A model generated the notes under the pieces. It searched no databases and had not been told where the DNA came from. It saw only the letters and a list, made by a program, of their open reading frames with translations. The position numbers were made by a program, and so were the translations under genes. From assembly GCA_029964075.1 (NCBI GenBank), contig CM057144.1, positions 15,275,281 to 15,339,280 of the forward strand: DNA of 64,000 nucleotides, read 5' to 3'. Positions within the stretch are counted from its first letter, which is position 1; each line of letters begins with the position of its first letter. Shown here piece by piece: positions 1,920 to 58,386 of the stretch. Source of the DNA: Patiria pectinifera (lineage: Eukaryota; Echinodermata; Asteroidea; Valvatida; Asterinidae).

Positions 1920-3318
1920 CTAAGCTTTATCCAGTGAAGTCTTCTGTTTGGGCTCTAGGGCTCTTGGTTCGTGGGTACCGTGTACCAGCGAGTGTCCGTG
2001 TGGAGTCAGCGCGTTCATCTTTATCCTCCGGTATCGTCGCTTCTCCTCCAGCACCTGCATCTCAAGCCGGTGGCGCTGTCTCGTCTGTTCTCGCACCTCA
2101 CGGGCCAGCTCTCGCTGCTCGTGGGCCGTCTCCATCTGGACGGTCAGCAGCGCCATCTTGGCCTCGTGTTCGTTGCGCGCGTAGTCCATCGCCGTCCACT
2201 GATGGTGGCTGCTGGGGTTGTCGAAGTCGCTCATCACCCCGGCGGCTGTTTCGTGTCTGTAATCGCTGTCGCCTTCGCAGTGGAAAACCTCTCCTGGATA
2301 TAGATTAAACAGATAAAATACGATCCATTAAATCACTCATTTTCCAGCACCAACGGCAATTTGGCATATTGGCTTGCAAGAAATTGTACCTTTAATTATT
2401 TTTTTCATGAAGCCTTTCATGAAGATATGACTTTGGAAGATCATGCGTAGACATAATCATAATAAATTATGTGTTCCATCAATTGAGAAAACAAAATCAA
2501 TGCGAAAAACTCTCTGGTTAAATCAACAAACTTGAGTTACTTAATTTTGAAGATTACGTCACATGAAAAAAAAATAATCACTGCTAATTTCTTTTTACCA
2601 AAAGTACCTGTTCAAGTTATTCCCTCACCAATGTCAACGGTAAATTGTTCACAAATGGAAATTAAAAAAGGAAATGCACACCTATCTCCTCATCATCCGA
2701 ATCATGCACATCCTCGAACTCCGCCTCTGGGTCTGTCACCTCACCGTTGCTTCTCCCGAGATGTTCGTCCGTCTCCTCGTCATCTTGGCCTCCTTCGGCG
2801 AGGGGAACTGGCGAGCACTGCTCCGCTCCATCCTTGCCTTCCTGACTCTGTTGCTCCTGGTAAGACCACGCGTCCTTGGGCTCACTTTTGACCACAACCG
2901 TCCCAAGAGAGGCCGATGTCATACGGCCGCTGGTGGTTGCGCAAGCCCCGTTGGAAACCATTCCATCCGGTATCATGTTAGGGATACCAGGACTCCGGGA
3001 GTTAGATTTTCCCATGCGCAGCGCCACCGATCCCGCGGTGGGCAAGTTGAGCGTGGAGTACCCGTTAGAGCTCATGGATTTCTTGGCCCGCATCTTGAGG
3101 TTGTTCCAGTATTTGCGGAGCTGGCGGTGCGTCCTTTTGACCACGTTGTGCTCAGCATTGAACCCGGCCACGATCCGAGACCAGGCTGCGTCCTTCCGTC
3201 GCACCGTCATCCCGTCGTTTCTCTTCGACTCGACGATCTCGATGTTCGCCTCGATCAGACGTAGCAAGACGTCCCTCTCCAGCACCGAGAAGTTTAACCT
3301 TTTTGACCTGGACTCCAT
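1920..3318 (-). CDS. Myb/SANT-like DNA-binding domain protein (MSANTD3-like), 2 exons, 336 aa
   Basis: Exons (minus): 3318-2682 and 2293-1920. The phase-1 donor AG/GTGTGC joins an acceptor CCAG/GA to give an uninterrupted 336-codon frame ending in TAG. Residues about 8-82 form a trihelix-type Myb/SANT-like domain with conserved tryptophans (DAAW, KYW) and a basic third helix. Residues about 140-210 are acidic and low complexity, with SEPK and DDEE tracts. Residues about 255-303 are a Glu/Arg-rich coiled coil, as in the C-terminal half of vertebrate MSANTD3. The start MESRSK is chosen because the domain begins just after it and the frame further upstream has no better ATG. The family is nuclear and probably DNA-binding; its targets are not known to me. 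Related single-domain proteins also derive from Harbinger transposon Myb-like proteins, so a domesticated-transposon origin is possible. No inverted repeats or nuclease gene are nearby. Confidence 0.85.
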
Positions 3319-6262: not shown

Positions 6263-9200
6263 TCATCTTGAGCGTTTGGCCGTTTTGACCAGACCGTTTT
6301 CTTGTTGATACTGCAGGATCAGTGCTTCTTGCACGGCGGGTCGGCAGGGCTGGTAGTGGCTGTATTCCATGGTGTACTCGCCTTTGCCTTGGGTGGCGGA
6401 CCGGAGCTCGGTGGCGTAACCGAACATGTCGTTCAGCGGCACCTGCAGACAAGGGTAAAAGAAGTTTTGGCCAATATGATAGCAATGATGTGCCACTGAT
6501 GAAGTGCAAGCGAAATGTAGTTATGGTAGGACAGGCTTCAATATTTTAAAATAAATTATCAATGTTTTTAATCAGGTATCAATTGTCTTTCAGTTTTGTC
6601 ATATTGCCAATTTTGCCATACATTGTGGTGTTAATGATATTATAAACACAGTTTTCTGTGTCCTGTTGTTGTTGTTGTCCTTGTTGTCATTGTTCTTGTT
6701 GTTGTGGACGTCATCGCCATTATTGTTGTTATTGTTGAGAGTAATCTATTTCTTAATTTAATGCTAATATATTTCTTATCCTAGTTGCTACCATATGACA
6801 TTTGTGTCTAGATTTTTCATGGAAAATATAAATTAATAAAGTTATCATAGATTAGATTATAACTACAAATGTTTACAAGCAAATGCCCTAGATCAGTATC
6901 CTATTTTGAATCCTTGTAATCAATTTCTAATCAATCACAGACTCACCTCACAACTGATGGAGAAGTACCCCTCCCCGCCGTCCGAGCCCGAAATCACCCC
7001 GTTGCGCTTGTTGATGCCAGCCAGGACGGTACCGTGAAACTCTGAGGGCGCTGTCACTTCCACGTTCATGATCGGTTCCAAGATGTGGCATGCTACTTCA
7101 CTCATCGCTGAGGAAAAATACCCAAAAAAAAAAAAAAAATGTTTTTCGAAGTGAATTCAGGAGCCAACTATGGGATACTACTTTCTTTGTACTACCAACC
7201 AGGTGTTGGAACATTGAAGGTACTAGAATGCGCCCAATTGGGCTACAAGAAACGCGTTTTTAAACAAAATCCCAAGTGTGCTCTGGTGGGACTCGAACCC
7301 AAGACCTCTTTCTGATGAGTGCAGATGTCTTTACCACTTGACACCTGATCTTGCCTAGGTCAGCTGGCTGGTTCGAATCTCATGCAGCAGCAAAAGCATA
7401 TTACATCAAAAGCATATAATTGAGACAAGAACTTTATATAACTGACCTTGCTTGATGGCTCCAAGACCAGCCAACCTGAAAGCCAGCTCACTAGAGTCCA
7501 CCATGTGATGCTGACCGTCTTGAAGACGCATGCGGATGCCTGTGATCTTCTGGCCTATCTGGAGGCCCTTCTCTGCTCCTTCATAGAAACCCTAGAGGAA
7601 AAAAAGGAAAGAAAAGGAAGTTATGAAACAGGTGTCTGATCATTTTAAAGAGTCAGGTAAGTTCATTGGAAATAATTGTAAAGCGCTTTGAGATTGTTAA
7701 TACGATGGAAAGCGCTATATAAGTATTACAATTTTTTATTTTTTTATTTTTTTATTCAATTAAAGAAAGACAGGATCTCCCCAACAAAGATTACAAATAA
7801 GACTTTTGGATACAAAAATACTGACTTTTCATAATTAGGCAGGCAGCAAACATGATCGATTTACAAATGGCAAAGAAAAACAATAAAGAAAAAAACATGT
7901 TTAGCTTGAAAGATGAAAGGGAGTAAAATATTAAATGGAGGTAATGATCTTTTTATCTAGAAATCGACGAGGGGTCAAAACCTATCTTGGAAAGAAAAGG
8001 AGAGGTACAGGTAAGTACATGTAGAATCAAATTCAATGCAGCCACAGTGAAATGCAACAGATACCAGAGAGTCAAAGAAGAGTTCATTTTGGACATGAAA
8101 TAGTCGAAGAATTGAAGCTCACCTTTTCCACCGCTGGAACAAACTGCTTGGGGACATTGGTTCCCAAGGTCTCATCCTCAAACTCTATCTTGGTGTAGGA
8201 ATCCGCAGGTAGAGGCTAGAAAATTACAAATCACGATATATGTGTCAGTGTATGTTTAGTGTTTTATTTATTTGTTTTAATGGTTTATCTGCATTAAGTG
8301 AAAGATCTAACATAAAGGGGGTTCTACAAACTCCATATGTCAAGTGTGTTCAGCACAGAGTTTACATGTGATTCTTTAAAATATTCATTCTCACTCACCT
8401 CAATCACACCGATAACTTTACCGTACTGGCCGGCGCCGCCCGACTGCTTTTTGTGTAAGTAGTCAAATCTACAAAAAAAACACAACAAAAAATGTTGATC
8501 AAATCCATATTCTAAGCTTGTTTTTGCCATTACGTGCTTACCATGCTGAAGCAGAAATTTTGATGCTGACCATATCATCACAGAATCCTTTAAGTTAAGG
8601 GATGTACAAATGGCAAAAGCAAAAAAAATCCTGCCCATGGTTATGCCACCTCTGAAATATGTTAACCATTTTGATTAGATTTTGCAAGGATTTTCATTTA
8701 TGGCAAGAAAATCAGTGAAATCGAACCCAGGTTTAAAGTAGAACCTCTTCTCTTCGAATATCACAGGTTCGGGAAACTTTCAATAACTGTTGTAATTTCC
8801 TGATGAGACCGATCAAACGCAAACTGATATTATTCTGTATTCATTTAAAAAAATCCAGACGTGAAGATTTACTCACTCTATGGGTCGCAAGATGGACTCC
8901 CGGAAGGCCACTTTGGGTTTGCCCACAACCACAGGGCAGTTGTATTCATTTTCCATTCTCTGGGCGTAGATTTCAAGATGCAGCTCTCCCATGCCGGACA
9001 CTATCGTCTGCAAAATAAAACACGTCAAAATATCATCTAGGTAAGGAAAAACAAGGTTTTCAACAATCAGAAAAATCAGAGTGGAGTTGTCAATTTGTAC
9101 CACCAGGCCATAGTGCCTATTACTCCATATACTGCCCAAATCTGCCCCAGCACTGTATGATTTTAAGGCCTGCCCAAGCAATGAAAGGTTTAAGGATTTA

Positions 9201-12200
9201 TCAAGGAGTAAATGAAATGTTACAGAATGTGAAGTAATAACAATATAAAAACAATGTAATACATGAGCTAATGGGTTAACACAAACCTCTTTGCTCTCAT
9301 TGTCAAAGTGCACAGTAAACGTCGGATCCTCACGGGTGAAACGATTGATCGCTTTGGAGAAATTATCAATATCGGTCTGATGAGAAGAAAATAAATCAAG
9401 TTGGAAAAAGACAATAATTTTTTGATGATCCAAAATAGACAGCTGCAAACACAAACTAGGCATGGACAGATGTAAAAACAATGGATACTTGTTCTTGTGC
9501 TTTTACAAAATTAACGACAAAAAAAAATTTAATAAAAATCTCCTAAATTTGGAGGTCCAGTGATTTGTAGTGACATGATCCTACCTTTTTCTGTGGCCTG
9601 ATGGCCAGCGAAATGACAGGCTCTGGGACGTGAATCGATTCCATGGACAGCTGGAACTTGGGTTTGGAGACGAAGGTGTCACCGCTGGCACAATCAATGC
9701 CAAAGAGGGCGCTAATGTCCCCTGCGTAGATGTCAGTCTGGTCCTGGTTGCCAGAAGAAAAAAAAACCAACTTAAATAAACCACAAGATCTTAGACTATT
9801 TTGAGGAGGGGAGAACGGTATTTGGAACGGTCAGTTTTTAAATCCGCCTTCAAGCTGTTCTTCAATATTTACTGACATTCAGGAAAACTTTTGTACATGT
9901 TTCGCTGTTGCTGATGGAAATAAGGAGAGACACAAAATTCTTTCACAAATCCCCCTGAAGTTGGGATTTTTCAGATTCTTACCTGCATTTTATCAGCATG
10001 CATGCGTACCAGCCTAGACACCTTGACTCGTTTGTTTGTCCGCGTGTTGTAGATGTATTGACCCTTCTGTAGATGGCCCTGGTATACCCTCATGTAAGTC
10101 AGCTGACCAAACCGCCCAGCCTGTACAATTATCCAATGCACGCATACATTTATGAATTTATTATAGTTATTAGGTTTAGTATTTGAACTGGGCAAGCTCA
10201 AAAAAGGCTTGGACGCTATTCATGTCAGATGTACATTACACTATTTGAATGTAAAATCATACAAACTGAAGAAAAATCCTGATTCTAAAATACAAAATAC
10301 CTAAAAATTTGTGACTGTACAACAGTATATTGAAAGCAACAAATTTCAGAGTGCAGTTTGTTACCACTTTCCTCATTGATTTGTGTACAATTATCGGCTC
10401 TTTTTTATGTAAAAATTGTACTATATTTGCTACGGTTTATTTGCTACATTGATTTGTCAACCAAAGGGAGAACAACATACCTCAAGTTTGAAGGCAAGAG
10501 CGACAAATGGATTTGAATCGTCTCTCCTTGGATCCATCTTCAACTTTTGATCCTCCCTGGAAAGAAAATCAGCAACAAGAATGTGCTTTTGAAAGATAGA
10601 ATGCTCTGAACAATTCACTCTTCTAGAAATGCTGAAAATTGAATGCTTACTCGTCAAAGGCGTAATTATCCACTTCAGATGGATTGGGGAGGTAGTCCAA
10701 GACTGCATCCAGCAGTGGCTGTGAGAAAAGCAAAGAAACAAGAAAATAATTAATCTCTTGAAGTCATAGATTTGAGTGGACATTAATCTTTGAAAGAATG
10801 CAGTTATTGTAACGGTGTTAACTGAGGCAAAATATCAAACGTAATACTCTTTATGTAATATATCAAGTGGTTTGTACCTGTACTCCTTTGTTTTTCAGGG
10901 CTGTTCCGAGAAACACTGGCGTGAAGGCTTGTTTGAGGGTCGCACGGCGGACGGCTGCCTGTAAAATGTAAAAAGAGGAAGAGACATTTTGGGAAAACGT
11001 AGTCTTGGTTTTTATCTTTCAGGAGTTCCATTTAATTACTGATGTCACAAATCGGACAATTTATGCAGATCTGTTTTCCCCGGAACTTAAAGACTCTTCA
11101 ACTTTTGGAAAATTATTTTTTAAAATATTGCACGACCTTCTAAATTTTGTCAAAAATCTAACACAGAATAGGAAATACATACCTTTATCTGCTCTTCGTT
11201 TGGTTCCAATTCTGAGAGAAACATGTCACCGAGCTCCTCGTCCACGTTTGCGACACATTCTGGGAAGCCAAGAAAACTAAAATCATTTTACGTACAAAAT
11301 TCACAATTTCCAAATTCAAATTTGAGACCAGAGGGAAATAATTCAGAAACAGCAAAAAATTGTATTAGTGGAGAGGCAATCAGAAGGAGTTGTTATCCAG
11401 GGGCCAATTTCACGGCGCTGCTAAGCACAAAATTTTAGAGCTGCTGCTGCACAAAACAACAAGCAGCTTAAGTCAAAAAGTTATAAATGCAGGTTATCAG
11501 CCAAAACTCCAGTAAGATGCTGTTATCCCATAGATGCTGCTAAACAATGTAGGTGCTGTGATCTTATTACAAGCAATATGAATGTCCTGGTTTTCATGCC
11601 ATTGGAAAAGAATCCTTACCAATCATTTCTTGTCTTTTTTCTTCCATTTCTGCTTGCAATTCCTCAGGAACCTCCTTCTGAACAACATTCTGCCTGTAAG
11701 GATTATCACCGAAAATGTTTGCATATTTTAAACAAAACAACAGTGTTTATTTCATTTTATATAATTCAGTTTTTGAAGCACGTTTTAAAAATGTTGACAA
11801 TGCGATTACAGTAAAGTGTCTTGCCCAAGGCCATTAGCATCAGAGTTCTTTGAATAGGACAAACAGTTCCATCAGCAGTACATGCCTGGATCCAATAAGA
11901 TCTCTCACTGCACTGTGTCCTTCACTGTTAAAAATGTTTCAGTGATTACAATGTGAGGCACTTTTTTCTCCTGTCAACGCACCCCTGGTCTCCCTCGAAG
12001 TAGATGGCTCGTCGATGGATCAGGTCCACCACACCTTTAGTACTGGACTCCAGGCCAATGGGTAATTGCAAGAAGGCCGCGTTGTGGTTGAGCTTGGAAC
12101 GGAGCTGGGACAAAACACGGTGTGGATTCGCCTTGAGCCTGTTGGGGAGAAACATTTTTTATTATCTCATGTTACAGTGAGCAAAAGATTTCTGAAACAA

Positions 12201-19147: not shown

Positions 19148-19152
19148 TTATT
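19147..19152 (-). promoter_or_regulatory. AATAAA overlapping the PTB-gene stop codon
   Basis: The final codons GAA TAA are followed by AA, so AATAAA starts within the last sense codon. Whether it is used cannot be told; a functional transcript would normally need a signal further downstream. Confidence 0.3.
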
Positions 19153-21627
19153 CCCAGTCCGGGCGGATGTCGAATACCACCGGCTGTTGCCGTCCTCGGC
19201 GCCCGTTGCTCACGTCCTGCCGCACGTAAACCTATCGGGGGAAAGGGATCACACTCATTAGTTGTTTGGAGTTATAATTTGTTTGTCCTGACTATTTCTA
19301 CAATTCAAAATACTGATCTGAACGTCACTTATTGGACCGAATTGAGTAAAATGCTGAACTAACTAACTCACTGAGAATGAAACTGACTGAATGACAGTGT
19401 GCTTATAAGACAGGGTCTTCATGTATAATTCAACATGTAGTTTGTAGCATTGATGTGGAATGTTCGTATGCCATTTTCAATCAACGAGGGCGCCATTTTG
19501 CGGACAAAAACAGATGTGATTCCAAGGTTATTGCAATAAAAGTTGGAACAATTCGAAAATTACGATTTGACGATTGTACTAGATTGAAGCGAGGTTATTT
19601 AATTGCTTCAATAAGCCAGACTTTTGTTCTATTGTTTGTGCACCGAAAATGTAGTAACCGCGTCCTCAATATGGCCTAGTGAGAAGTGACAATATAAAGA
19701 AAATAAACAAAAAACCACAGACCTCCTCTTGGGGCGAATCGTCATAATCATCGTCATCGAAGTTGAAGCGCATGGAGTACGGCTCGGGTTCGGGCTCGCG
19801 GTTTCCCTGGTTGGATCGGGAGACGATCAGACGCTCCGGCAGGCCAGGCAGCTCGTCACGAGGGCGGAGGTACTGGTGGGGGCGGGCGTGGCCAGAGTTG
19901 TAGTAGCTGGAGATGTTGTAGAGGGGCATGCCGCGGGGGGCATGGTCATCCCACTCCTGGAAGTATTCTGAGGGGATGAAAACCACACCAAAATCATGAC
20001 GCAATTTTATTTCGATCAGAACGGGCAAATGTCTCAAATCAAGGTTTTAGTTGTTTATTTTTAGTTGTTTATTTTATTATAGTTGCAATATTTTTTAACT
20101 GGAATCATTGAGGCGTGTACTTAGTTTGGGCCAAATATTCCGGTTATATACTGAAACACAAAATAGCATTATTATTTTAAAAACAAAATGGCAAGATTAC
20201 GAAAGCTGAAAATAATTGTCCAAGTTCTTGTAACAGTTCTTGCTCTAGAAATTGTTTTCAAAACCTGATACTGGACAGTGTATTTGTAAAGACTTGTAAA
20301 GGTTGAGGCCAAAAGGAACAAGTTCGAGAATGTTTAGTGACTCACCGAGGCCTCCCATGTCCATCTCGCGGCTCCTGCGCTCCTCCAAACGGCGCTGGTT
20401 CTCCTCCACGCGCAGCCACTTCTCGTAAGCAATGCGAAACGCCTCAGAGACCGTTTTGGTGATGGTGTCACACTGCTTGTAGCTGCTGCATTCGAAGACA
20501 TGGCACAGGAAGCGGTTACCACGACCGCGGGCTACCATTGAGAAAATGGAAGGGTAGCGCGGATCAGCGGCCACGAAGTGGACCTGGTTGATTGGGATGT
20601 GCTGGACGTCTCGGGTCTCTGGAGGAAAGAACACACAATCACATAAACATGAGACAGTGACCTTTGACACAATATGACCTTTGACACAATGCTCAAAAGG
20701 AATGTCCTGAGCAGTTCAAAGCAACCAATCAACGCAGTGGAAATAACTTAATACGTCTTTATTGTGATCCAGTCAGTGAGCAGTTTGCAGCAGTCTAATT
20801 ATTGTTCACGTAATCTTAATAATAATATTAATAATCATAACGATACCGGAGTCTTTTATAGCACACGTATCTACAAACAATTAGGTTCTCGAGGGGCTGG
20901 TAATCTTCGAAGTAATCTAACAAGATAAGCAAGGTATCAAAGAGCATGGATGCGGTTTCAACGTTTCGGGCAGCCAGCTGTGGTTTCCTTCACGAGATTT
21001 TGTTTAATGAAGCTGCAGTATGAACAGTACGAACTATATGCAATTGGTTTTAAGCGCGAGTGTGCGTCGAGTAAATATTTTGCCTAAACTCGGTGAGGTG
21101 AATTTTGATAGTTCTTCAAACTTACGGGTTTCTAATAGGGCTACGTTCTTAGCGTTGATGTGCACGGTATAAATCGGAATGGCAACGCCTCTTTCCCTGT
21201 ACACCCTGGCACGAGTACGGATCTCCTCAACCAGCGCGTTAAGCTCCAAGATACTCGGTTCAGAGCTTTTCACTCGGGTGGCGCCCAGAAAGACTATCCT
21301 GAAGAAGGTCTTGGAGAAATTCTCTGGGTTGGCACTTCTGGTGTTGGCCATTTCGTCGTCATCTGATGTGGTGGTGGTGGGCCGGGCGGCTGGCCGTCTG
21401 CTTTGACGTGCTGGTCGGCCGTTAGCGGGCTCGCGGACTTGAAGCTTCAAGCGGGCTGGCATGGCGCGTCCCAAGCCGCTGTCGTCCCGCGTCTGAGAGC
21501 GATTTGCCGGGGTGAGGATCAAGCGGGTCGGGGAGCGCGACATGGACCGTGCCCGGCCCCGCCGGCTTCCCCCAGACCTCACGCTCGGTCGGTTCCGGCT
21601 CTGCCGCACGTACATCGTGTTACTCAT
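19148..21627 (-). CDS. Same PTB gene, isoform B from an alternative 5' exon (4 coding exons, 367 aa)
   Basis: Exon B (21627-21126) joins shared exons C 20618-20346, D 19967-19723 and E 19231-19148. Exon B ends ACC C/GTAAGT, in the same phase (1) as exon A, so either fits exon C. Residues 1-105 are basic and Arg/Ser-rich (RRGRARSMSRSP) with a later acidic DDDE. Residues about 109-235 form a PTB fold, of which exon B encodes strands 1-4 (FFRIVFLGA ... YTVHINAKNVALLE). The frame upstream is closed by TAA before any ATG, so initiation at 21627 (or the ATG four codons later) is likely. A cryptic acceptor (GGACCAG/AA, about 21704) would let exon A splice into B in frame, but that product would carry two front halves and one back half. 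Alternative first exons are the simpler reading. Confidence 0.75.
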
Positions 21628-24600
21628 TAGTGACAGCGAATTGCGCAAAGCCCACTCGAAAAATGTCCTTGAAAATGACGCAGACAATTTCTTCGTCAAT
21701 TCTTCGGTAAGTTCTGGTCCTCTTGGAAGATAGAAAGTAGCTTAGTGTCTGAAATCCGCAGTGATTTTGTCAAAATCAGCACTCCTATATACTACAAGAA
21801 GTTCCAGGCTTGCACAAAAGAACACGGTTTGTATACAGGTGTGTGTCGGGATTCAAAATGGCTTCCCTAAAAACCCAGAAGTTGCAGACTGCAGGCAAGT
21901 TCTAGTGCGACAGGCAGGGCGTCGATTGTGTTGCCGAGGTGAACCGTGACATCCTCAATCGCACAGGGAATATTGGTAAATTTCGTATGCAGTGCGGAAC
22001 AATGGAGTTTTTTTTATAGCGAAATTCCGTCTCACTGGCTAAGAAAAAAAGGCATTTTGGGACATAGCCTGGTATCATCCAAGTTCTACCGTTTGGATCG
22101 TGGGCGTCGGGGGAGTACCTTTGGGCGTCAGTCGCATCCATCTCAATGTGATGATGATTAATATCAACAAATTTAACAAGATTCAGAACATGGCATCACA
22201 TGTCGATCGCTCAGAGGTTTTTTCCTTATGACGATCGGAGCACATGCCCGAAACGTCGACTTAAAACACCTATGGTTCTTCTCAAAATCACTTCTTTCTT
22301 AAATAGTTAGTCTATATACATGCATCTATCGACAAACGTATGCAGGTAGCAGGCGCGGTTCTACGGGGGGGGGGGGGGGGGCTAGGGGGGATTTAGCGAC
22401 CGGTCTCCCCCTAAAGAAATAGTCGTGACAAGGGTGCATTAGTTAATATAGTGTGAATGATTTTAGGATTTTATTGGCGCTCCCCATTGAAAATATGGCA
22501 TGGTTTGGGAAAATGGAGCTTGTTGACAGTCTTTTTGCAAGGACGCAAAACAGCGGATCCGTCACGCCAGCAGAAGCGATTCAACCGTGAATTGTTTCTC
22601 ATGAGTTAGTTCCCTGGCATGCGATGTCGATTTCAAAATTGTTGTTCTACGCTTTGCATTCTAATGGGTGACGTCATAATGCTGATGGCTTCCGACTAAA
22701 GCCATGCATGAAGTAAATTACCACATACGGTGCGTGGACAGCTGATTACTTTCCTTACAGATTTGGGTGGTTCCTCTTAAACAAATTGAACAAAACACAA
22801 GAAAATGTTCAAGTTTTGGGTAAAAGCTTTGGTGAATACCAAACAGGTAATTGTCGACGCCAAGTGTAATCGACTTTTTTTAGTGTAATCTTGCAGGATA
22901 AAAACACCCCAGTGATTTCACGTGTAAACGGGGATACCAAATTTGGTGTCCCCGTTTACACGTGAAACAATCCTAAGCATGAAGAAGATAAATTTGATTC
23001 TTACGATTCATGTTTCGAGTGACAAGGATCATTACCACATACTGGAACTGTAAAGAGTGCAGAAAATACTTTATGTACAAAGTTATGCATATAAATATGC
23101 ATTGGTATTTATGGAATACCCAAATGCACTCTACAAATTGTTTGTAACAACTCGTAAAGTTGTTCATGAACAGAGGCAACATAAAAAAAAAATATGTGCA
23201 GTATTGTTATAGTCACGTGGTATTTTATGTAGGAGGGTTAGATTGACAAGTATGGTGTTCTATATGTGCCATCGGCGTCGCATTTTTCGCCAGAGCATAT
23301 TGCGCACTCGCACTTTTTTTCTCGAAATTTTCATTGGTTGTGTAATAAAATAGAGAAATTTTACTTATTAAACAATGCTTAAAGAATTATTTATTATTAT
23401 ATTTGCAATTTTTTTGTCAGAGGTGGAATCAGAATCTTACAAATTAAGAACCGTACACATCTGGGGCAATGTTATTCACCTTATAAAAGTATAAACTGCG
23501 CCTATTTTTATTTGGTCAGCCATAATTATAAAGGCCCATACCCGTACCCGGATGTCGATGGCGGGGAAAACGGCGATAAAAGCAAGGCTTTCATCCGTTC
23601 CTGAGAACACCGGGCCATCTTTTCAGGAAACATTTTTGTGGTTTCTATTCCCAACAATACGCTGCCAACTTCGATTGGGATTTTCGCGCTTGAATTGCAT
23701 TCTTTGCTTTGTTTGGACGAAGTTCATATACAAAAATGGCCTCCCGCATCAATAAATATGTTTCTCGTATACCATTTCAGAAGTTGCATCTCGATGATTG
23801 TGGTTTTGTTTCTCTCACTTCATATTAATCCCCCAGTACAAAAATCCATCCACTTCCCCTGCTATGCCTTTTACACAGGCAAGTCACCAACAGCCAGATC
23901 ATATTCAAGTGAGCACTGCGACCAGTCATATTCAGGCAACAGACAAAAGCAGGCAACTGGTAAGTACTGTTGTCTTATCAATCACATACAGTCAATGCAG
24001 AGCTGTATCAAGTTACCTAAACAGTCACAGGCAGTCAATCCTGTTTTATGTCGGCTGGGAGCTCTGAAATTTTGAAAACAGTCACTTGATTTGGACTGAA
24101 ATAACAACTTGGCACAGAATGTTTGCGTAGGATGTTTGTAATGACAATAATGCCTGTATTTTCTTTGATCATGTCAACGTCAAGAAAAGAGACAAGTCTG
24201 GTTGTTTTTCTTTTATTTATGTATTTGTGAGTTCAACTATTTATTAAATTATTGATTTATTTATATATTTATTTTCTTCTCAACGCACTTTTTAGGGGGG
24301 TGTTTCCCTGCTAGAAATCATTTGAAACCGTATTATTTTGTGGTGCTGCTGAAAATTACCAAAATTTCATGTATCATTCTTGTTCTCAAAATTGGGCTAC
24401 CGGTATAAGTTCGTCACTAATATGTTCTTGTGTGAACCTTAATTAAGGAGCCTTAAGGCCAACCTCGTCCCCAGGGTGTCGAGCAGTACGCGCCCACCAC
24501 TAACGTTACACTATCGTTTGTTTTTGTATGCGATGTCTGAGCTAAAAACACAATCAATTCGTCGCGCCGTGAGTTACGAAAACACGATTGTTTTCGAAAT

Positions 24601-27600
24601 TAAAATGTTACAATCTTATCCCGCCAATAGGAAATATCACATTTCATATTAATATGAGCAAATTGGAAAGGAAAAGAGTATTTTTGCGAAGGTGTGGACG
24701 TTATAATTACAGTGATCGTGAAAACACGTCATGCACGTTGGAAATAACAACACCAACTACACGATATAAATCCATTACTAACAAATTGCGGTATCGAATC
24801 AGGATACAGGAAGAAAGTTTCCTATCCAGGGCTTACTACTGGAAACGAGGTTGGAAATAAAGTAAGCACTGGGGAAGAGGTTGGCCTAACGGTTTGCAAA
24901 CACTCCAATCAATACTGAGTTATCCCTTCGCCTACAATACAACTCGGAAAGATTACAAACAATTTATCAAAAGAAAAGAGTTAAAAGCACACAGCATAAT
25001 ATAAGCTGCTGACTGCCATTTTGTATGGGTAAAAGTAGGCCAAAAACCAAGCAGCCATCTTCAAAAATGAGCGCGATTTTGTATTGGCTGCCACAGGCCC
25101 ATAAATTTAAGTTGTGGTTGGCAACGGATTTTGCCAAAAATTGCATATTATCACCCTCATAATGTATAAAAATGCTTTTTATTCAACCTTGGGTATAGCT
25201 TTTGATTGTCATTTTGTATTTTCAACAATCAAATGATAATGATTGAAAACATTTTTCACTATTCTTTCATTTTTGCAACGTTGAACTTCCTTAGTTTGCC
25301 AACCGTGGTTGGCAAAACGTGCCAACAATAGAAAGGTATATCGGCCATTTCAATCCGTTTTAAAATACCTAAACACATAAAAACCCTGTTACTTGATGCT
25401 ACCGCAACAGTTATGCGACAAAGTCATCCAAACAGTATATGTAGTGACCAACTGCAAATCCGTGAAAAATTGAAAACGTCTTCGTGACACACTTGACTCA
25501 GAGACACACAACCTTTGCTGATCACACAGAAACACTTAATACTGTACAGGTAAATAATTTAACCAACGAAAACCCCAACATGCAGAAATACTCCCTTACG
25601 ACATTATAGTTTTATTTACACAAGTAAAAAAATTGCTAGGCTCTAAGCATTATTTGCTGTGGTATAAATTAGCTCCATGGGTGATTTCTTTAAAAACATA
25701 CTCTTGCAATATAATTGCGACATTGTACTCGACATTGCACTTGTAGGTCTAAAAGAAAGGACCTTGAAACTTGTGACATTTCGATTCGGCAGAACATACA
25801 CAGCGTGGGAACGATTACTAATATCGAAACCACGAGGAATTAATGCGTTTGGAATGCGCAAAACACAGCCTGAATTTTTTTGAATAGGTTAGGGTCAAAG
25901 GTTGTCTTCTCGGCCAACTTTTTATTTTGTGACGACATGTACATGTATACTTTAAAAAATGCACACAAGGTAATTTTCCTCCAGATGTAATTGTCACCAA
26001 CTCGAGCACAACTTCCTGTCATCACTTTTATTATATGAAAGTGATGACCTTATGCGCATGATGTCACCAGTCCTATAGAGAGATGCACAATATGACTTCA
26101 GTGGGGTCAAATGGCTCGCATATAAGTTTACTTTGGAAAATTGCATACCTTCTACATTGTGTGAAAACTTTCAAATTCCGGTTTTCTAAGTTATTTGAAC
26201 TCACTGGTTTTGGTGGTGGAATTAAAGTCAGTTATCCGATTTGAAGTTTAAATTCCTGCATTTGCTTAGCAGTCGGCGAAGAATGAATCTGACAACACTG
26301 GGGGTGGGGGATACACACCATGTGACTATAGAGGGCGTTTTTCCAAGATGTACATATATATATTACATAATGTGCAATTTCTGTGAAAAGGGCGGTGCAC
26401 AAGCAAAACCTTTGAACTACAGAGAAATTTTGATAAGTCAAAATCTGTTAACTCAAAAACCTTTCTAACTCAAAGCAAAAACTTATTCCCGTCAATAGTT
26501 GTTACATATAATTATAGAAAATCCATGGGATAACTCAAAACTCTGCTTTACTCAAAATTTGAGCCCATTCCCCTGAGGTTTGACTTATTGAGATTCCACT
26601 GTACAACACCATTTTGGAACAAAAATACTGTGCAGCTTTTTGGTAGCCGAATTATTATTGGGACGCCATTGATATCCCCAGCCCTAACATAAATTTGGGT
26701 GCAAAAATTGTTTGTGATCTACAGTTCGATAATGACCAACATATTAAGGGAATCAATAGACTACCACAACAGCGATAATCAATTTATGTTTAGTTTACAT
26801 GTAGTGATGTACTGTCACTTTGGTTACAAAATGGCGGACATCTTACAAAATGGCGGACACAGTAGTATTCAACTTTAGTAAAGGTTGTTGAAACAAAAAA
26901 CAAATGACATTTTCATGATGTTAACATGTTTTTCATTGTATATTAAATGTTGGTTCATCAAATCTCAATCTACTTTCAACCAACATTCAAAATGTTTTAA
27001 GAGGTAACAAATAGACCTTGCAAATTGAAGTGGCTGTAACCATTTATTCTGGATCTTTTTACCACTTGTATAGGTAACCCTTTTTTAAATTCTATCATTC
27101 TAAAAAGTACCACGAGGAAAGATTTTACTTTAAATTAGTGACCTACTCATAGAACTCGTTCGCACTCATTTCTTTGAGAAAAAAATACATGTACTTATTT
27201 ATCTCAAAAACTATTTGTGCCATTCCAGTATACAATTTTTGACATTTAGAGGTTTACCGCTTTGTCAAAGTAACCTTGCCAATATGAAAATTTAATAATA
27301 AGATTTCACCTTGACATGCCTACCATAGATTTGCAGGGAAGTGATAGTAAATCAACCTTTTTCAGAACACGCCGTTATGGTGCATGTACTGCCTGATTTC
27401 AAGACAATAATTCAAGGAATGAAACGTGAAGTGTGCATTCATCTGCATCTGTAAAATACTGTGCAAACTCCTTGATATAGGATGAGGAGTTTGCACAGCA
27501 AGGTAGGCCTACATTACACAATTATACAAGTTATTTGTCGACTCCTTCACAGTTACTTACATAAGTGTTGAATAAAGTCATGCATGCTCTATGATTATTT

Positions 27601-28147
27601 TAAGATGAGATAGTTATGATCAATTAAGTGGACATTATTGGTTTATATTTTTCAGATTTTAAAATGTTTCTGTTTCTGACTATCAATGGTGGGGTATTCA
27701 AATAAGTATTTCCCTGGTATGTTCAAGTTTATGTTACTTACCGGCCATTTTGAAGGAAACCTTGTCCAGCCCAATCTGGAGAAAGTATTGCTTCAGGCGA
27801 GTCCCTTCCCGACGGTAGGCGTCCGTACGATTCAGCACGTACAACACCACACGGGCCACATCCTCCATACTGGGCTCCGCGCCCTGCTGGACCTGCTGCC
27901 CCATCGGTACGGAGCCCATGTAGACCACGGGAAACTCCGGGAAACCACGGGGCTGGGGCCGGAGCTCGGGCCGGAGCTCGGGCCGTGCTCCGTACCGCAT
28001 GGCCCGACCGTACATCGGATCGGGAGGCGGTGCCGGACGGGTGCCGTACAGTGGGGCCGGCGGGCCGATCATCCGCGACGCTGGCACCAAACGCGGGTCT
28101 CTCCCCCCATAACTACGACCAACTCCGTATTCCGGTTCGTACAGCAT
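19148..28147 (-). CDS. Single-PTB-domain protein, isoform A (4 coding exons, 335 aa)
   Basis: Exons (minus): A 28147-27742, C 20618-20346, D 19967-19723, E 19231-19148 (stop TAA). Phases 1-1-0 agree and all junctions are GT-AG. Residues 1-70 are rich in Pro, Arg, Tyr and Gly, with a small RPEL repeat. Residues about 72-203 form a PTB/PID fold: exon A supplies strands 1-4 (FPVVYMGSV ... LDKVSFKM) and exon C the rest (PINQVHFVAADPRYPSIFS, FLCHVFECS, final helix VSEAFRIAYEKW). An Arg/Glu-rich helix follows, then a disordered tail with an acidic patch (DDDDYDD). PTB proteins are cytoplasmic adaptors that bind NPxY-type peptides or lipids; the partner here is unknown. A good acceptor (TTGTAG) ends at about 28196, so an upstream 5' exon, probably non-coding, must exist. 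ATG at 28147 has A at -3. I do not recognise the family. Confidence 0.8.
22916..22967. repeat. 52-bp nearly perfect palindrome
   Basis: Two 26-bp arms meet with no spacer at CCAAATTTGG. Only one base pair is mismatched (GGGGATACC against GGTGTCCCC). The outer arms include CACGTG. No neighbouring inverted copy or target duplication is obvious. Confidence 0.9.
24453..24889. mobile_element. Miniature inverted-repeat transposon (GGCCAACCTC ends)
   Basis: The left end TTAAGGCCAACCTCGTCCCC and the reverse-complemented right end TTAGGCCAACCTCTTCCCC form inverted repeats of about 19 bp around 437 bp. The left flank contains TTAA and the right TAA. It has no transposase frame. The superfamily is uncertain. 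Confidence 0.6.
25295..25316. repeat. Small perfect hairpin TTTGCCAACC-GT-GGTTGGCAAA
   Basis: Ten-base arms and a two-base spacer. The half-site GCCAA resembles nuclear factor I half-sites, although the spacing and orientation differ from the classical site. Confidence 0.6.
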
Positions 28148-29146
28148 TTTCTTCCCGTCTTCTGCTTTCAAACTGTCTTTCTTTACCCACAAATTCTACA
28201 AGCACAAAAACAAAATAGGGTTTTCCTGAGATCTTCCCAGCAGTTTTCTGCCACGAAGAACAACGGGTGTGACTCAAACTGTAAGAGAAAAAAAACCCAG
28301 AAAGGTACAATTGTTCACGCGGTCAGGTCAAAAACGAGGCCGAACTTTTTGAGGTTTTCATCCACCGCCTGCGATTTTTCTTTCCAACATGGAGGCAGCA
28401 GGGTCGCTGTTTGTTCTTCACGCTTGAGCGATCACACGGAGGTTGTAAAGTCCCACAGTGCAGTACTAACGCCCTTTCACGTACGGGTGCATAGCAATTT
28501 GCATGCTCGGGTCATGAATTGTACCCAAAAATCCTTGCACAAACAAGCCTATTGTTGGAAAGCGGGCTGAATTCTATTGTGTCTCCGACAATACATTTTT
28601 AGTCAAACCACTGGTTGACTGCTCATAGCTAAAATTCAACCTAACTCCCATAACATTTAATATACGGAGGATTATTTGCCGACTGTTCATGCGGAAAAAG
28701 GGTGTAGGGAGGTATTAGTCATGATCTTGTTATGAAAGTAAAAACGCCTTGTTTGATACTAAATAATGAACTTATGTGTTTTGAACCACTCCAAGTTCAC
28801 GTTTTAACTCCAAGTTCAAGTCTAAGTTACATGATTGCTTTACTTATTTCAATAACGACGTTTAGTTGTCGAATTTCCAGTGATTATTTCTTTAAAAATC
28901 AGACAGAACACAGGACTTGCTGATATTTTCAGCTGCTGATATTTTCAGCAACATGCTGTAGCATCAAAGTTCATATAATAAATGTTACTAACAAAGACAA
29001 TAACGCTGCAGCATTATACTGATTTTTAGGGTTTTCCTTCATTGTGTTTTCTTAAAAAGCTTATAAATGAAAGATAACAACTCTTATCTACAGACAGAAA
29101 AAGAGTGTTCTGGCGGTGCACCAAATTCGAATTGGTTCCCAATGTA
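28148..29146. other. 5' flank of the PTB gene, no coding exon assigned
   Basis: The acceptor at about 28196 requires an exon upstream of it on the minus strand. Open frames at 28300-28420 contain ATG codons but all stop quickly, so the upstream exon is probably untranslated. I could not place its donor with confidence. Confidence 0.4.
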
Positions 29147-35819: not shown

Positions 35820-36010
35820 CAGATTATGTGACAAGTTATGCAAATGTTCATCAAATCATGTGACAAGTTATGCAAATGACATCAAATCATGTGACAAGTT
35901 ATGCAAATGATCATCAAATCATAAGCCAAGTAACGCAAATGATCATCAAATCATGTGACAAGTTATGCAAATAATCATCAAATCATGTGACAAATTATGC
36001 ACATGATCTG
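35820..36010. repeat. Minisatellite of about six 32-bp units carrying ATGCAAAT octamers
   Basis: Units follow the pattern ATCATGTGACAAGTTATGCA plus AATGATCATCAA. Four units carry a perfect ATGCAAAT octamer, the POU/Oct-factor consensus; others read ACGCAAAT or ATGCACAT. Units 1 and 6 are diverged at the outer edges. Confidence 0.85.
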
Positions 36011-39011: not shown

Positions 39012-56624
<17,613 letters not shown>

Positions 56625-58200
56625 TACTAAATAATATTCAGGGGAATTTTGAGATAAATCTGCGAAACTTCGGGGAGAGATTTGGTAGACTTGGGGAAAA
56701 GACACAGCACGCAGCGGGCCTAATTTAGCAACAGGCTCTAACAAAATGTTAGAAATAACATGTGTCATTATAAAATCATCAGCACTACAAGCTTGACATG
56801 TAACGAATTTACAAAAATATGAAACATAACAAAATAAATTTTAAATGGAAAAGCTAATAACAAAACTTAGTTTTAATTATCAAATTGATAATATTAATAA
56901 TAAGTATTTCTTTCTTTAAAAAAAAGTTACTTCACAAGAGGGCGCCCCTTATGAAAGTGCGCCATCTGCGTTTATGGGGGCAACCCTGCAAAAAAAATCC
57001 CATAGACACTAATGCTAAAATAATGCGCATACTTCATAATTCTTGTAAAAATACTCAGAACTCTCACAGGTATTCAAACTGCACAGAAAAATGATGATCA
57101 ATGTGTCATCTTTCATTTTCTTTTCATTGTTTGGTGGGTTGACCATTGACTTTTTGAGATATTCTCACCCAAAGAAGACGACCGCCCCTATTTTCCCCAA
57201 AGCGGAAAGTAGTAGCCATCTCAGTTGAAAAACAAAATAACACTGAACCAAACTGAAAATGCCGTGGGGGGGGGGGGGGTAGGAATTTCATTAAAATCCA
57301 TTAACCATGGTCACCCGATTAGTTATTTAGTTAAGACAAACCGCACCCCAGTGGGGGGGGGGGACTGGGGGGTGCGACGATTTTTATTTTTTTTTACGGT
57401 GGAGCCGTGCCCCCCCCCCCCCCCACGGCTACGCCGCTGGTACAAAGCAACTTTACCCTGTGACGAATTATCTGACAGAATATCTATTGCAATGTATTCG
57501 CCATTGAAGAGGGCCTCCGTGATAGAATTGACAGCGTGCCCGAATTGTACACTGAGCATCATCCTATTATTTTATAGGCGTTACTCCCCTCCACACCAGT
57601 CCCAGCTCCCACAGCTGACATTATCATAGAACCCCACATTTTCTTCTTGTGTTTCAAAGTAGTCTCCTTCAAAGTGTTTCTTATACCCTTTCGACGATTC
57701 ATAATTGCATAAAATATAATCTCAAGACAAATTATTATGAAGCTTGGCCAATTAATTTGTAAGACCTGAATCGACTATCCCGAATTCGCCTTTTGTTGAG
57801 CCTCATCTGATGTACGTGGTATCCACGCAACTTGTGTATAATACTGTCCTTGTGTGTCACTGTGTTTTTCACACAGAGCGTACCACTAGCTCCATGGGTT
57901 TATTGTTGGGAATCTCCACTTCGATGAGGGTGTTGCTCAGATGGGAAAGAACCATTATGAACATTCATAAAAGACTACGTTAGATTATGGACAGTTATAA
58001 GTATCGAAAAGTGAAAAACACTGGGTAAAGAAATGTAATAAATAAATAAATAAATAAATAACATATCAATAACTTTTTTAAAGCTCTTCGACATTGTCCT
58101 AACAGTCTTTATGGTTTCACCTTGCCATATGGTGCCATGATTCAGTTAAGTCGCTTAATGGAATTTGTGCCAGGCAGTGGAAAATTTAGTGCTTTTAACA
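56625..58200. other. DDX3/CA-like intergenic region, DDX3 side
   Basis: Presumed DDX3 promoter side; no TATA box seen. The frame containing exon 1 is open for some 48 codons upstream of the chosen ATG, so part of the 5' UTR is open by chance. At 57250-57440 there are long G and C runs ending in CACGGCTACGCCGCTG, the same type of end as the hAT element at 14687-15567, but I find no matching left end. Confidence 0.4.
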
Positions 58201-58386
58201 AAATACTAATGGTAAATATAATCTTTTCGTCTTTCTCGAACACTTGCCTTGTTTGAGCACTGCGTTGGTGGACCTGCCATTAAAAGCATTAAAACAAAAA
58301 TACTAATGGTAAATATAATCTTTTCGTCTTTCTCGAACACTTGCCTTGTTTGAGCACTGCGTTGGTGGACCTGCCATTAAAAGCAT
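58201..58386. repeat. Perfect 97-bp tandem duplication
   Basis: The sequence from TACTAATGGTAAATATAATC to TTAAAAGCAT is repeated at a distance of exactly 97 bp with no mismatch seen. It is non-coding and lies between DDX3 and the CA-related gene. Confidence 0.9.

Follow-up and report, generated by a model that had tools for sequence, protein, structure and literature searches.

The stretch of Patiria pectinifera DNA analysed here is 64 000 nucleotides long (the window; assembly GCA_029964075.1, contig CM057144.1, positions 15 275 281 to 15 339 280 of the forward strand). Between window positions 28147 and 19148 it carries, on the minus strand, a putative gene for an adaptor with a phosphotyrosine-binding (PTB) domain. 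Two exons of this gene each encode a different front half of the domain, and one downstream set of exons encodes the rest. Exon A (28147–27742, minus strand, 406 nt) starts with an ATG and encodes a Pro/Tyr/Gly-rich tail of 71 residues followed by PTB front half A, which runs from FPVVYMG (about 27934–27742). Exon B (21627–21126, minus strand, 502 nt) also starts with an ATG and encodes an Arg/Ser-rich tail of 108 residues followed by PTB front half B, from FRIVFLG (about 21303–21126). Both end in phase 1 at a GTAAGT donor, after 135 open codons plus one base in exon A and 167 open codons plus one base in exon B. The shared set, on the same strand, is composed of exon C (20618–20346), which encodes the PTB back half from about strand 4 to the final helix; exon D (19967–19723), a shared tail in frame after C with the donor GTCTGT; and exon E (19231–19148), the shared C-terminus, which ends in a TAA stop. 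The joined reading A-C-D-E has 335 residues and B-C-D-E has 367; both are stop-free and share the same terminal stop. A first-pass annotation of this DNA had given coordinates, frames, phase 1 and GTAAGT donors for exons A and B, and all of these were recovered on re-checking.

The splice sites were scored with general consensus frequencies and ranked against 3790 GT and 3481 AG sites of the minus strand. The donors of exons A, B and C lie at the 99.7th, 96.6th and 99.4th percentiles, and that of exon D is weaker (94.0th); the acceptors of C, D and E lie at the 99.3rd, 98.4th and 99.1st percentiles. Codon usage was compared with a table of 532 codons from eight neighbouring coding stretches, seven of them in open reading frames (ORFs) with a Pfam match and one recognized by eye. 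For each of exons A, B, C, D and E, the proposed sense frame comes top of the six possible frames. The PTB front halves score 0.376 (A) and 0.121 (B) bits per codon against a GC-matched background. An antisense ORF of 296 codons (27680–28567, plus strand) lies opposite exon A and its upstream region; because exon A scores higher for codon usage in its sense frame, we regard this ORF as a by-product of GC-rich coding sequence.

Each joined product is predicted to form a complete Dab-like PTB domain, the PTB fold having seven strands and a capping helix. In Pfam, A-C-D-E matches the family PID (PF00640) with 53.1 bits over profile positions 1–138 of 140, and B-C-D-E with 44.5 bits, both above the curated cut-off of 20.9. 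The cut-off alone is no proof of the front halves, since C-D-E without any front reaches 37 bits and passes it too. When only the domain is scored, A-C reaches 56.1 and B-C 47.6 bits, against 38.0–39.2 bits for shuffled A fronts joined to C (n = 4) and 38.8–42.3 bits for shuffled B fronts (n = 4). On a local PTB profile made from four solved structures, A-C (positions 4–130) scores 59.8 bits and B-C (positions 1–130) 68.8 bits, compared with 49.6 for C alone, 1.5 for A alone and 8.5 for B alone. The real score on this profile is reached by none of 500 shuffles of each front (best 56.3 for A and 58.6 for B). Joined to C, the two fronts take the top two ranks of 231, the best of the 229 other 69-residue peptides from the window scoring 53.7 bits. 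The top solved-structure matches of both joined products are GULP1 (6itu) and LDLRAP1 (3so6). With the GULP1 PTB structure the scores are 54.9 bits for B-C (chain residues 17–154), 42.0 for A-C and 31.6 for C alone; with LDLRAP1, B-C scores 47.6 bits. AlphaFold places a helix at residues 29–48 and strands at 56–60 and 65–69 in both isolated fronts, as expected for a PTB front, although its two runs share the same two sequences and count as weak and not independent. A weak match of exon B alone to histone H2B in PDB (E about 0.2) was taken as chance.

The two front halves resemble each other. Their Smith–Waterman score is 55, against 21.4 ± 4.0 for shuffled sequences (maximum 44), and none of 2000 shuffles reaches the real score; the identity between A and B is about 25 per cent. 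On this comparison, exons A and B are homologous. The window contains 2193 stop-to-stop ORFs of 20 codons or more. When A is added to a front profile of the four solved PTB domains, B is recovered from them at E 0.0018; when B is added instead, A is not among the best 6 of the 2193. The locus contains two homologous coding exons of the same splice phase and one shared downstream set, which are two features of a variable-first-exon arrangement; in such genes each variable exon also has its own promoter and is spliced separately. Recent duplication was rejected as the source of the pair, the region of exon A giving no nucleotide match to that of exon B at E 1 or better. The likely origin of the pair is a duplication of the 5′ part of the gene, which at 25 per cent identity would be old.

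Only one back half was found. Among the same 2193 ORFs, a back-half profile built without exon C gives exon C 49.8 bits and the next best ORF 8.8 bits. The front profile that includes A and B gives 79.2 and 78.5 bits for these two, and 11.2 bits for the next ORF, which is on the other strand. There is no second exon C among the window ORFs, and a search with C–E gives a best E of 0.35 between A and B, or 0.28 when the upstream region is added. The earlier view that a single exon C encodes the remainder of the domain thus holds for the window, where a missed second copy was sought and none was found. Relatives of exon C were confirmed neither in viral contigs (5 pattern stretches) nor in bacterial or archaeal contigs (31 stretches), as expected for an animal-type gene.

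The division of the domain can be placed by comparison with AIDA1, whose PTB cleft contacts its peptide, according to an excerpt of the published report, through N91, K110, I134, L135, G138, F141 and Y145 (PMC3683042). All seven residues, whose letters agree with the numbering of the chain sequence, align to exon C, and this supports the first-pass proposal that the groove lies in the shared exon. F141 and Y145 of the last helix are kept as F and Y in both products; the other five positions differ (N91 to Q, K110 to R, I134 to T, L135 to K and G138 to S). The splice point aligns after AIDA1 residue 79, which we take to lie between strands 3 and 4, the strands being assigned from the alignment and named as in the NUMB literature. 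Exons A and B had been said to encode strands 1–4. They do encode front halves of the PTB domain, but in the alignment the exchanged part covers about strands 1–3 and the first helix, and strand 4 starts in exon C. The description of the two tails agrees with residue counts: of the 71 residues of tail A, 16 are Pro, 6 Tyr and 9 Gly, and of the 108 of tail B, 21 are Arg and 14 Ser. Clathrin box, DPF/W, NPF, FxDxF, WxxF/W and AP-2 beta patterns have no match in either product.

An in-frame stop lies 51 nt ahead of the ATG of exon A and another 117 nt ahead of that of exon B, with no ATG between stop and start in either case; ahead of exon B, a further ATG is absent from a stretch of about 300 nt. 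Together, these start and stop codons suggest that A and B are first coding exons. Their exact 5′ ends are provisional, because acceptors precede both: 28276–28298 (minus strand, first exon base 28278, 99.5th percentile) and 28195 ahead of A, and 22032–22054 (minus strand, first exon base 22034, 99.1st percentile) ahead of B. A non-coding exon may thus precede exon A. The 900 nt ahead of the ATG of B contain three TATAWA sites, 691, 391 and 164 nt from it; the last, TATATAGGA (21783–21791, minus strand), is a candidate proximal promoter element, for which it is weak evidence. Two other features of the A–C intron were recorded. One is a near-perfect palindrome of 52 bases (22916–22967), with 26-base arms, no spacer and 96 per cent complementarity. 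The other is a pair of near-copies of TGTCAAAGGTCA with a 17-base period (20658–20690, minus strand), about 40 bases before the acceptor of exon C, which we take to resemble nuclear-receptor half-sites.

We think it likely, from the sequence features above, that the locus is a single PTB-adaptor gene whose coding sequence can begin with either of two exons, in which the front half is swapped and the groove is constant. The layout itself, with two homologous front halves and one shared back half, is well supported at sequence level and is unusual for a PTB gene. Transcripts started upstream would splice A to C, and a second promoter inside the A–C intron would start transcripts with exon B, again spliced to C; the proposal thus posits two promoters and, in RNA, the junctions A–C and B–C. 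The groove, formed by strand 5 and the last helix in exon C, would be constant, and strand 1, the first helix, strands 2–3 and the N-terminal tail would be exchanged. Such a swap would alter membrane or partner contacts with NPXY-type recognition kept; in Dab-like PTB domains, NPXY binding is independent of phosphorylation. A and B are probably used alternatively in cells. We suggest more tentatively, as an idea that may well prove wrong, that promoter choice swaps the PTB front face and tail with the NPXY groove held, yielding two adaptors for the same receptor motif with different membranes or partners. If the proposal is true, a small signalling domain is built combinatorially at gene level, from a fixed groove and an exchangeable front, and the two products are a natural chimera pair for probing the role of the PTB front half in lipid contact, second-site partners and stability.

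Several observations weigh against this gene model. Searched singly, neither exon A nor exon B matches a PTB domain in Pfam or PDB, and the front profile of four solved PTB domains built without A and B places neither among the best 6 of 2193 ORFs. What supports the fronts is the joined domain, together with the A–B similarity. The B product matches Pfam PID only at profile positions 55–138 of 140, the LDLRAP1 score of A-C (40.1) is hardly over that of C alone (38.5), and the AlphaFold models of the fronts are of low confidence (pLDDT 57.6 and 57.2). Codon scores are below zero for tail A (−0.179), tail B (−0.088) and exon E (−0.017), although these frames are still the best of six. On the promoter side, TATA-like sites before B are weak evidence, such sites occurring about once per kb on the minus strand, and there is no TATA-like site within 900 nt before the ATG of A. 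Finally, the strong acceptor at 22034 means that A could splice into the B region.

This last point leads to the reading in which a single transcript carries both front exons (A-B-C), or in which A transcripts include the B region only sometimes, as a poison or cassette exon. We consider this improbable. From A to the B donor there are six acceptors that reach the 97.5th percentile, one of them at 22034, directly ahead of B, but none of the six keeps the frame open: each leads to a stop between 5 and 49 codons past A (26 codons for 22034). Joined as whole exons, A, B and C do not share a frame when B is read from its ATG. The stretch from A to the B donor has 319 possible acceptors, and we paired each with that one donor. 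The frame of A closes with 304 and stays open through C, D and E with 15. These 15 acceptors are weak, however: the best, 21719, which would place one front half behind the other, reaches the 91.6th percentile, compared with at least the 98.4th for the acceptors of C, D and E, and 10 of the 15 would stack the A front ahead of the entire B front. Exon B also has its own ATG, isolated from any other as described above. A-B-C joining, which the first-pass annotation had named as a counter-reading, is disfavoured on these grounds: the window gives no A-B-C reading with a good acceptor. The B region may still act as a poison exon.

A different possibility is that a partial duplication of the gene left exon A, or less likely exon B, as a silent remnant that is not expressed as a PTB front and whose frame is open because the event was recent, or merely by accident. 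It is the strongest of the rivals but still unlikely. In its favour, exon A, searched alone, has no match in PDB or Pfam, and no convincing C–E remnant was found between A and B, as if A had lost its own back half. It accords poorly with an exon A that is open over 135 codons, keeps a donor at the 99.7th percentile and has a front whose codon score exceeds that of the B front; moreover, with 25 per cent identity pointing to an old duplication, an unused copy should presumably have decayed. Least probable of all, in our estimate, is that exon A belongs to another gene with a back half beyond the window, or was misplaced in assembly. The evidence does come from one contig window only, but the phase and donor of A fit C, A is similar to B, and in the 27.7 kb of the window downstream of A, which include a same-strand EF-G-like gene, exon C is the only PTB back half found.

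The proposed PTB gene lies between two other genes on the same strand, an order that bounds exon A and favours the gene model. Upstream of A is a DEAD-box helicase gene (39015–52281, minus strand), with Pfam DEAD and Helicase_C matches in stretches at about 48.7–43.6 kb. Its extent was set by eye: it starts at about 52.2 kb, has an RGG-rich N-terminus and finishes near 39.0 kb with an exon for the C-terminus, DWWGN. By eye, the gene resembles DDX3. Downstream is the EF-G-like gene (6275–10120, minus strand), which has several exons and matches Pfam EF-Tu domain 2, EFG_III and EFG_C; an ORF near 12.0–12.2 kb resembles part of it by eye and has no Pfam match. Near the start of the window, a single ORF at 2665–3318 (minus strand), 218 residues long when read from its ATG, contains a DNA-binding domain of the Myb/SANT-like type (PF13873, 64.6 bits), and another ORF (2327–1923) follows directly downstream on the same strand. 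There are two tandem arrays: one at 58200–58386 with a 97-base unit (1.9 copies, 100% matches), and a satellite-like one at 35826–36008 with a 32-base unit (5.8 copies, 88% matches). The window has no tRNA genes and no Rfam families at the gathering threshold.

The first-pass annotation held that no PTB gene with such a layout had been described. This agrees with the open-access full-text literature, a scope that leaves subscription papers mostly outside: among the matches listed there, none is a PTB gene with alternative front-half exons. Where the excerpts of the literature found describe PTB splicing, the exons concerned either encode 11 residues within the domain, as in NUMB and Mint1, or lie outside it, as in CCM2. 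The comparisons with published genes that follow likewise rest on excerpts of the cited papers.

The general plan is known from other gene families. UGT1, UGT2A, GCNT2 and PCDH alpha/gamma have several first exons, each spliced separately to constant exons, and in UGT2A the N-terminal domain is variable and the C-terminal domain shared (PMC1885805). These genes follow the same plan as the PTB locus, namely variable first exons and one constant set. They differ in encoding enzymes and cadherins, whereas the PTB locus is split inside one domain of about 135 residues and has two variable exons, the only ones found, with promoters that are postulated. Among PTB genes, CCM2 can start from either of two exons that contain a start codon, 30 and 93 bp long; they have separate promoters and are reported as related (PMC6825194). 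It is thus also a PTB gene with two alternative start-codon exons; however, its first coding exons are outside the PTB domain, which is encoded by CCM2 exons 3–5 (PMC6825194). GULP1 and LDLRAP1, close as they are in structure searches, show about 28–31% identity to the present products in the back half and 16–27% in the fronts, and the endocytic motifs tested are absent from the tail here. On the absent motifs and the low identity, we do not class the gene as an orthologue of either.

The nearest parallels for a change inside the domain are NUMB and Mint1/X11. In NUMB, exon 3 (11 residues) changes PI4P binding, membrane localization and the binding of MDM2 and LNX1 (PMC11889595), and conservation is highest from strand 4 through the last helix, a region for which exons 5 and 6 code (PMC6778778). 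NUMB therefore has a Dab-like PTB domain altered by splicing ahead of strand 4, with an exon break at a similar place; the difference is that an 11-residue cassette is involved and the front half is not replaced whole. The Mint1/X11 isoform 826, without 11 PTB residues, keeps APP binding and gains Rab6 binding (PMC3667844). Here again splicing inside the PTB domain keeps one partner, APP, and changes another, although by the skipping of one 11-residue exon. The NUMB exon 3 and Mint1 826 changes show that such changes can matter in other PTB genes, and an exchange of front and tail such as that proposed for P. pectinifera may do so too.

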